From: Acidobacteriota bacterium
GTDB lineage: Bacteria > Acidobacteriota > Holophagae > Holophagales > Holophagaceae
NCBI GenBank assembly: GCA_021802985.1
Contig: JAJZQW010000026.1
Coordinates: 1-32,354 of the forward strand
Direction of reading: 5' to 3'
DNA length: 32,354 nucleotides
The notes under the pieces were generated by a model. It ran no database searches. It had not been told where the DNA came from and worked only from the letters and a program-made list of their open reading frames with translations. Positions 4,601-32,354 of this stretch are shown here, piece by piece (positions within the stretch are counted from its first letter, which is position 1; each line of letters begins with the position of its first letter). The translations under genes and the position numbers were made by a program.

Positions 4601-4677
4601 TGGTGATCCCAGCGCGATTCGAACGCGCGACCTTCTCCTTAGGAGGGAGACGCTCTATCCATCTGAGCTATGGGATC
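4601..4677 (-). tRNA. tRNA-Arg (anticodon CCU)
   Basis: A full cloverleaf can be folded on the minus strand. The acceptor stem is GATCCCA with TGGGATC, the D arm GCTC/GAGC, the anticodon stem TCTCC/GGAGA with loop CTCCTAA (anticodon CCT, reading AGG), the variable loop AGGTC, and the T arm GCGCG-TTCGAAT-CGCGC. Discriminator A and an encoded CCA follow. The length is 77 bases with CCA. The second hairpin repeat begins a few bases past the 3' end and may help termination. The 5' end overlaps open frame upstream of tatD, which argues against starting that gene inside the tRNA. Confidence 0.95.
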
Positions 4678-7964: not shown

Positions 7965-8026
7965 CTAGGAGCGTGTCCAAGTAATGGGTGGGGGCTGCAC
8001 TATCGATTACTTGGACACGCTCCTAG
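7965..8026. mobile_element. 62-base palindromic element, MITE-like fused ends
   Basis: Two perfect 21-base inverted arms (7965-7985 and 8006-8026) face each other across 20 bases. The outer sequence CTAGGAGCGTGTCCAAGTAA occurs again at 32138. The right end, 8000-8026, is the exact reverse complement of 32138-32164 (27 bases). The left end also matches the other site beyond the arm: both have GGGGCTGCA five bases inside. This is what an internally deleted element, or two ends joined head to head, would look like. ATCGAT stands close to both borders (7957-7962 and 8031-8036), but no convincing target duplication is seen. Confidence 0.8.
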
Positions 8027-8115
8027 CCGCATCGATAACCAGGGACAGGCCCACCTTTCCGATGGGATTCATCGGATGGCCTTGCTGGAAATCGTGGCGA
8101 CGCGTTTCCCCCGCC

Positions 8116-30338: not shown

Positions 30339-31157
30339 ATGCATCCAGTTCTATTCCAGATCGGCAACTTCCCCATCGGCACCTATGGCCTGCTGCTGGC
30401 CCTGGCCTTCTTCGCGGGCACGGCCCTGGCCCAGCGCCAGGGCAAGCTGGACAAACTGGTGCCGGGCGCCATCACCGACCTGGCCATCGCCGTCCTCATC
30501 GCGGCCATCGTCGGGTCCAAGCTCCTGATGGTCATCGTCGGCCTCTTCACGCCGGCGGGTCAGGAAGGCGCCATGGCCTTCCGGGACATCTTCACCCTGG
30601 CCACCATGCGCGCCGGCGGCGCCATCCATGGGGGCATCATCGCCGCCACCCTGGTGTTCTTCTGGAAACTGCGGAAGGGCCAGGGCCTGCCCCTGCGCAC
30701 CACCGGCGACGCCCTGGTCCCCGGCGTGGCCCTGGGCCAGGCCATCGGCCGCCTGGGCTGCTTCTCCGCCGGCTGTTGCTACGGCACCGAAACCCATGTG
30801 CCCTGGGCCGTGACCTTCACCAATCCCGTGGCCCAGGCCTTCAGCGGCACGCCGCTTGATATTCCGCTGCACCCGGTCCAGCTCTACAACACCGTGGCGA
30901 ACCTCACGGTCATGACCATTCTCCTGCTGGCCCGGAAACGCCGGGGCTTCGAGGGCCAGATCTTCGCGCTCTACTTCCTGGTGGAGGGCCTGGGCCGCAT
31001 CGTGACCGAGACCTGGCGGGGCGATGGCGACCGCGGCACGGGCTGGCTGGGCTGGAACTGGCTCAGCACCGGCCGGGCCACCGGCCTGGGTTTCATGATG
31101 CTGGGCCTGGGCCTCTGGCTGGCCTGGAGCCGCCGCCGCCCCGTGGCGGCCCGATGA
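30339..31157 (+). CDS. lgt: Prolipoprotein diacylglyceryl transferase, Cys-variant signature
   Basis: Integral membrane enzyme that moves diacylglycerol from phosphatidylglycerol to the lipobox Cys of prolipoproteins. 272 residues with about seven helices. H97 in AIHGG, R138 in the signature and the late EGLGRIVTETWRGD arginine are kept, as is HPVQLYN. The Lgt signature, normally GRxGNFxNxExxG, reads GRLGCFSAGCCYG: the Asn that is essential in E. coli is C141, and the later polar residues are also changed to Cys. This is either an active variant subfamily or an Lgt-like protein with another role. The chosen ATG aligns with family starts; the ribosome-binding site is weak. Its stop overlaps the next gene's ATG. 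Confidence 0.85.
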   Translation: MHPVLFQIGNFPIGTYGLLLALAFFAGTALAQRQGKLDKLVPGAITDLAIAVLIAAIVGSKLLMVIVGLFTPAGQEGAMAFRDIFTLATMRAGGAIHGGIIAATLVFFWKLRKGQGLPLRTTGDALVPGVALGQAIGRLGCFSAGCCYGTETHVPWAVTFTNPVAQAFSGTPLDIPLHPVQLYNTVANLTVMTILLLARKRRGFEGQIFALYFLVEGLGRIVTETWRGDGDRGTGWLGWNWLSTGRATGLGFMMLGLGLWLAWSRRRPVAAR

Positions 31158-32164
31158 CTCGCATCTGCGTCGAGGCCGACGCCCCCCGCCTGGATCGCTT
31201 CCTGGCCGACCGCTATCCCGAGGTCCCCCGCGCGCGCTGGGATGCCCACATCCGCACCGGTGGCGTGTCCCTGAATGGACAGCCCGTGTCCAAGGGAGGC
31301 GTCCGCCTGCGGATCGGTGACGAGGTGGACACCGACCTCCCGACCCCGCCCCCACCCGCCGCCCACCTGATGGCCGAAGCCATCGAGCTGCCCACCCTCT
31401 ACGAGGACAACCTCCTCTGGATCGTGGATAAGCCCACGGGTATGGTCGTCCATCCCGGCCCCGGCCATGCCGGAGGCACCGTGGTGAACGCCCTGCTGCA
31501 CCGGTTGAAGGCCCCCGTAGCCGCCCCGGAAGAGGGGGATGGCACCGATGCCGAGGACACAGAGGAGCTGGCCACGGGCTGGCCGGGCCTCGTCCACCGG
31601 CTTGACCGCTACACCACCGGCTGCCTCTGCCTGGCCAAGACCCTGGAAGCCCAGCGGGCCATCCAGGCCCAGTTCAAGGCCCGCACCGTGGAGAAGCGCT
31701 ACCTGGCCCTGGTGCGCCATTCCCCCAAGCTGCCCCAGCTGGGGTCGCTGCTCATCGACGCCCCCATCGCGCGCCACAAGCATGACCGCCTGCGCATGGT
31801 GGTGGCCCTGGGCGGGCGCTCCGCCCAGACGCGCATCCGCGTGCTGGCCCGCACCACCAGCGCGGCCCTGGTGGAATGCGAGCTGCTCACCGGGCGCACC
31901 CACCAGATCCGCGTCCACCTCGCCTCGCTGCGGGCCCCCCTCATGGGCGACCCGCTCTACGGCGGCCCCGGCCGCTGGAAGGACACGGACGGCGAGGCCC
32001 TGCTGCTGCCGCACCCGGCCCTGCATGCCTGGAAGTTGTCCGTGGATCAGCCGGACACCGGCGCTCGCATCGAGGCCGAGGCCCCCCTTCCCGCGGCCTT
32101 CTGTGCCCTGGCGGCCGCGCTGGGCCTGGAGCTGCCTCTAGGAGCGTGTCCAAGTAATCGATAG
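31154..32164 (+). CDS. RluD-like 23S rRNA pseudouridine synthase, 3' end replaced by a repeat element
   Basis: RluA/RluD family enzyme, converting uridines in structural RNA to pseudouridine. 336 residues: an S4 RNA-binding domain (about 1-65), then the catalytic domain with IVDKPTGMVVHPG (90-102), HRLDRYTTG with catalytic D151, and GRTHQIRVHLASL. The last eight codons (329-336) and the TAG stop come from the repeat element that begins at 32138, so the original C-terminus has been replaced. Because the loss is beyond the core domain, the enzyme may still work. It is translationally coupled to lgt (ATGA). Confidence 0.88.
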   Translation: MTRICVEADAPRLDRFLADRYPEVPRARWDAHIRTGGVSLNGQPVSKGGVRLRIGDEVDTDLPTPPPPAAHLMAEAIELPTLYEDNLLWIVDKPTGMVVHPGPGHAGGTVVNALLHRLKAPVAAPEEGDGTDAEDTEELATGWPGLVHRLDRYTTGCLCLAKTLEAQRAIQAQFKARTVEKRYLALVRHSPKLPQLGSLLIDAPIARHKHDRLRMVVALGGRSAQTRIRVLARTTSAALVECELLTGRTHQIRVHLASLRAPLMGDPLYGGPGRWKDTDGEALLLPHPALHAWKLSVDQPDTGARIEAEAPLPAAFCALAAALGLELPLGACPSNR

Positions 32165-32354
32165 GGGCTGCATTGATGGCAAAGGGATTCCAGGCAAGGA
32201 AGCGGGCGCAGGGCGGTGCGGGTTCACCGTTCAAGCCCGGTGACGCCGCATGGGAGCCCTTTGCCATCAACCCTTCGGGCTGGGGCGGCAGCCGTCGGGA
32301 TGCTGCGTCAGGCTCCTCGTCCTTGGAACCGCCAAGGCCTTCGTCGCCTTCCTT
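32138..32354. mobile_element. End of a probable transposable element, cut by the window edge
   Basis: It starts with CTAGGAGCGTGTCCAAGTAA; bases 32138-32164 recur as an exact reverse complement at 8000-8026, and the outer 21 again at 7965-7985. Inward lie GGGGCTGCA, also shared, and a 14-base inverted pair (next entry). No coding frame with a recognisable transposase is seen in these 217 bases, so this is the non-coding edge of a larger element. The family cannot be named from the terminus alone. Confidence 0.65.
32173..32270. repeat. 14-base perfect inverted repeat inside the element
   Basis: TTGATGGCAAAGGG (32173-32186) and CCCTTTGCCATCAA (32257-32270) are exact reverse complements separated by 70 bases. 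They could fold an RNA or DNA arm near the element's end, as seen in transcription-shielding or transposase-binding subterminal sites. Confidence 0.7.

Follow-up and report, generated by a model that had tools for sequence, protein, structure and literature searches.

Based on the comparison of its copies within and between genomes, the 62-base palindrome at positions 7965-8026 of the window (the whole stretch of 32,354 nucleotides that was analysed) appears to be an internally deleted, gene-less MITE that consists of its two ends only and has moved as a 56-bp unit to several CTAG sites, a reading to which we assign a probability of roughly 0.8. Direct support comes from several observations: the elements form a family with common ends; three genomes together have one and the same short junction at about seven places; relatives show clean empty sites; a congener has an IS whose ends and flanks are the same; and the two arms change in pairs. 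The elements are short and non-coding, have terminal inverted repeats, occur as dispersed copies with empty sites and have ends in common with an IS, as MITEs do, and the palindrome belongs to this already known kind of element; what is unusual about it is how small the amplified unit is and that its arms change in pairs.

Structure of the palindrome and its family

Pairwise comparison within the window gave two arms of 21 nt each (7965-7985 and 8006-8026), 100% complementary and 20 nt apart. The initial annotation had seen in them a left and a right end of a single element family, lacking the interior, and this description was borne out: 7965-7999 is 91% identical over 35 nt to 32138-32172, with GGGGCTGCA at an equal distance in both as had been noted, the right end (8000-8031) matches 32133-32164 at 94% over 32 nt with the final 27 nt (32138-32164) exact, and elements of 267-473 bp with the same ends were found in addition to whole 62-base units. 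The palindrome is no chance hairpin, as was also claimed then, because its fold energy as single-stranded DNA is −24.6 kcal/mol, whereas shuffled versions average −5.5 (z −11.7) and none of 200 equals it. The arms are best read with their outermost C-TA and TA-G as target sequence and target duplication, and with G7968 and C8023 as the first and last bases of the element itself (Table 1). Within the 56-bp unit the spacer is oriented from GGGTGG to CGAT on the plus strand, with a 2-base CT overlap at its junction, and the long copy at the end of the window has its CTAG flank at 32138-32141.

Table 1. Positions of the palindrome, its parts and the long copy in the window.
Feature	Position	Strand	Basis
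Complete palindrome of 62 bases (56-bp element with CTAG target and TA duplication)	7965..8026	.	arm pairing, fold
Mobile unit proper, 56 bp, G-GAGCGTG...CACGCTC-C	7968..8023	+	flank statistics (73 copies), empty sites
Left terminal inverted repeat, GGAGCGTGTCCAAGTAAT	7968..7985	+	arm pairing, 73-copy compilation
Right terminal inverted repeat	8006..8023	-	arm pairing, 73-copy compilation
Spacer GGGTGGGGGCTGCACTATCG, sub-terminal sequences from the two ends of the 267-bp form, fused	7986..8005	+	full-length copy comparison
TA, putative left target-site duplication within CTAG	7966..7967	.	flank statistics, empty site
TA, putative right target-site duplication within CTAG	8024..8025	.	flank statistics, empty site
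Long copy (~267-bp class), CGATAG end first, truncated by contig end	32141..32354	+	matches full-length copies

The window is contig 28 (C28) of its own genome, G000, an assembly of 86 contigs that is 72% complete and contains 24 end matches. Four of its copies are 62-base units, of which C28:7965 and C60:14826 are identical and C60:17422 and C84:10295 stand at 94%, and two are full-length copies of 273 bases, on C49 and C24. Eight more end matches lie near contig ends (C5, C9, C18, C28, which is window position 32138, C31, C41, C50 and C61), so it is probable that contigs broke at this repeat, and the family helps to explain why the assembly is fragmented. The match at C18:31197 is a lone end with its partner absent nearby. 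Ends within one mismatch occur in 24 of the 47 genus genomes, matches in an exact search of GTDB representatives with the 21-base end were confined to Holophagaceae and Geothrix records, which very probably makes the source a Geothrix-like bacterium within the Holophagaceae, and no IMG/VR contig matched in a search for viral carriage.

In total, 73 non-redundant two-ended copies of 47-473 bp were compiled, all too small for a transposase gene; 19 measure 47-57 bp, a few 68-240 bp and most 266-270 or 309 bp, with the longest at 473 bp. Two end types, GAGCGTG and GAGCCTG, are found in the family and the window palindrome is of the GAGCGTG type. The long form is non-coding; its fold (MFE −176.7, z −11.6) combines a terminal stem and a pair of long hairpins, and in 13 copies of it 96.6% of the predicted pairs are kept, 12 pairs being changed on both sides. 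Some longer copies (L107, L108, L114, L115 and L122) contain additional hairpin modules (such as CTCGGTATCGGC...GCCGATACGCGAGAC) that were inserted at recurring internal positions.

In its target, the family comes closest to MITEPsy1 of Pseudomonas syringae pv. phaseolicola, a gene-less element of 100 bp with 18-nt inverted repeats that targets CTAG or YTAA. Movement of MITEPsy1 in vivo has been demonstrated and presumably depends on the transposase of a related IS, its partner being ISPsy2 (PMC3189936). MITEPsy1 differs in its length, end sequence and partner and in a reported 4-nt duplication, as opposed to the TA that seems likeliest here, and the part of its description used here mentions neither a 56-bp form nor nested hairpins. 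The MITEs of Methanosarcina acetivorans related to ISMac2 (160-169 bp, one with 4-bp direct repeats) have an IS1182-family partner, as we propose for the 62-base family, but they differ in their archaeal host, greater length and inverted repeats of 25-26 bp (PMC3852290).

Target site and empty sites

Eight relatives share the two genes of the window locus (histidine kinase and ABC-F) but lack the element there, the intergenic region being too diverged to give the exact target. The comparison of empty sites, which in the own genome covered copies of the 62-base form, showed that the site of C60:17422 is empty in G001 and G041 (86-87%), that of C84 in G041, G013:C279 in G005 (84%), G039:C18 in G048 (91%) and G046:C8 in seven relatives. 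None of the empty sites examined points to loss of a larger target, and the gain consists of the element and 2-4 duplicated bases. In G048 the empty site reads GCTTTAGGTCAG and the occupied site of G039 reads GCTTTA, the element and TAACTCAG, which amounts to the element and a duplicated TA, with two substitutions nearby.

CTAG is present on both sides in 36 of the 73 copies. The base that adjoins GAGC/GCTC is G/C in 145 of 146 flanks, whereas the three positions beyond it show 60 deviations in 438 (p 4e-7), and because the adjoining base is near-invariant while the others vary, this G...C was counted as part of the element. The flank statistics, together with the G048/G039 site, thus suggest ends of the form GG...CC, CTAG as the preferred target and a probable duplication of TA at CTAG. 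A strict 4-bp CTAG duplication was rejected: among the 37 copies that are not flanked by CTAG on both sides, none has identical flanking 4-mers. Only 7 of these 37 have TA on both sides, so many copies lack a clean duplication.

CTAG, the preferred target, is far scarcer in the window than expected (7 against 33), and three of the seven belong to the two family copies. At one orthologous site, G009:C5 (L037) and G013:C19 (L045) both hold a short copy, with the asymmetric sub-terminal hexamers swapped, and about 20 bp beside the element, located between two CTAG-like sites in G009, are missing from G013; the difference may represent independent insertion, inversion or replacement. A pseudouridine-synthase-like frame at 31154-32164 extends into the end of the element, where it terminates (...LPLGACPSNR*); insertion at the end of the gene has thus added a short tail to it.

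Origin and spread of the short form

The spacer of the 62-base unit reads ...GGGTGGGGGCTGCACTATCGAT..., that is, one sub-terminal part of the long form followed directly by the other, the two overlapping in CT. Five sites in two genomes have the junction GCTGCACTATCGATTAC exactly (C28, C60:14826 and C84 of G000; C5 and C37 of G009), and two further sites have a near-identical one (G009:C1 and G013:C238). In most of the other short copies the junction is a different one, usually a singleton, and derivatives of 48, 51, 52, 68, 71 and 92 bp arose by internal deletion with other junctions; as the GCTGCACTATCGATTAC junction recurs while most others are unique, it follows that deletions arise repeatedly and that one of them has multiplied. 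The minimal non-autonomous unit considered in the initial annotation is the better of its two explanations, since the junction recurs at several unrelated sites in the own and other genomes and the checked sites are empty in relatives. The other, a leftover of excision at 7965-8026, is not supported: scars at about seven sites flanked by CTAG-type sequence would not all show one internal junction. As a general account, too, an excision footprint was rejected, given the recurrence of one junction at separate sites.

We propose that the interior of a non-coding parent, about 267 bp long and sharing these ends, would have been removed by a deletion between short homologies (CT/CT), and that the resulting 56-bp unit would have moved as such to several CTAG sites rather than being formed repeatedly by an identical deletion. 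It was most likely moved by an IS1182-family transposase acting in trans, probably duplicating the central TA of CTAG rather than all 4 bp of this target, and the arms would later have been kept alike, most likely via template switching across the palindrome. If so, the 62-base family would set a lower limit, drawn from nature, on the requirements of an IS1182-type transposase, which may be two ends about 20 bp apart.

The candidate source of the transposase is a 1.5-kb IS in G044 (C487:101-1635) that has 16-bp ends and CTAG flanks like those of the MITEs, with a G/C difference at one position. It carries a frame of 445 codons of the IS1182 family, which scores 382.9 bits against NF033551 (cut-off 270) and contains the Pfam domains DDE_Tnp_1, DDE_Tnp_1_6 and DUF772; G047 has a transposase 95% identical to it, with similar ends, and few other members of the genus have IS1182-family proteins above the cut-off. 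The G044 IS resembles the MITEs only in CTAG and the terminal 16 bp, and it has GAGCCTG-type instead of GAGCGTG-type ends; no autonomous element with GAGCGTG-type ends is present among the end pairs listed, and neither a transposase gene with these ends nor an IS1182-family protein above the cut-off was found in the 72% complete assembly of G000. An element of the G044/G047 kind is nevertheless the likely source of transposase for the 62-base unit, judging from these sequence similarities. A neighbouring frame, at whose 3' end the G044 IS is located, continues into this IS, comparable to the frame at 31154-32164 in the window.

The main rival to movement of the short unit is repeated identical deletion, by which a 267-bp element inserts and then loses its middle in place, always with the same CT/CT junction, for instance by slippage across a cruciform. 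Internal deletions with other junctions clearly occur (the 48- to 92-bp forms) and the stem and two long hairpins of the long form (z −11.6) are a structure expected to favour them; however, the same junction would have had to form at about seven sites in three genomes with only 2 bases in common, while the other junctions are mostly singletons, and no site turned up that has the long form in one genome and the 62-base unit in a second. We therefore regard this explanation as rather unlikely, and in-place deletion of a longer copy as possible for 7965-8026 alone.

Neither of two further readings has much to recommend it over that of a MITE that moves as a 56-bp unit. The paired arm changes (see below) and the pairing kept in the long form (96.6%, 12 double-changed pairs) could reflect selection for a hairpin, as in a REP/RAYT-type or other independent palindromic repeat that serves as functional hairpin, terminator or protein-binding site and involves no fusion of transposon ends, but longer elements and an IS carry the same ends and no Rfam family was matched by the element, the sole Rfam match in the window being a tRNA at 4604-4677. 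REP and BIME sequences with their RAYT transposases (PMC2817692) are similarly short, dispersed, extragenic palindromes, whereas here two inverted ends are common to longer elements and a DDE-type IS, and target bases are added. REP/RAYT elements are single hairpins with a GTAG/CGTC foot and a RAYT gene, the foot of the 62-base element is CTAG, and the gain of an element with a few target bases at CTAG-like sites is unlike the single-strand mechanism of REP/RAYT, so that an independent repeat seems to us very improbable. IS1272, a member of the IS1182 family, to which the candidate partner IS also belongs by its transposase (NCBIfam NF033551), replaces stem-loop targets without duplication (PMC5678879), and on this precedent the 62-base palindrome could be a landing site that elements replace. 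IS1182-family copies in the distant relative G024 (L228, L258-L263) indeed lie within small palindromes, such as TTGAGCAGCT|GCTTGCTCAA, with about 3-5 bases duplicated, and the roughly 20 bp missing from G013 would fit replacement. Replacement is nonetheless disfavoured, and we give it very little weight: the 62-base family inserts cleanly at CTAG, empty sites gain the element and 2-4 duplicated bases with nothing larger lost, and the 62-base units bear the family's own ends and are not unrelated palindromes.

Paired changes in the arms

Among copies of the GAGCGTG type, 15 changes are identical in both arms compared to 1.6 expected when ends are shuffled among copies (0 of 5000 shuffles reach 15), a count that kinship among copies inflates although each case still requires a change in both arms. 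In G000:C84, for example, the ends read GAGGCTG/CAGCCTC and the spacer is otherwise unchanged. Template switching between inverted arms is an established arm-homogenising mechanism (PMC8604942, PMC8794818), and the terminal arms probably change together through palindrome-templated repair, the alternative being selection for matched ends. More tentatively, and with less than even confidence, we suggest that a 56-bp element, barely more than two 18-bp ends, may move efficiently and form a lineage of its own in several Geothrix species, and that template switching, by which the arms mutate in pairs, may preserve its palindrome, a self-repair of the ends without selection. The paired changes provide a natural data set on palindrome-templated sequence correction. 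Two near-identical copies, L116 (G045:C225) and L118 (G046:C55), have a common right flank and different left flanks, which reflects either recombination between copies or an assembly chimera.
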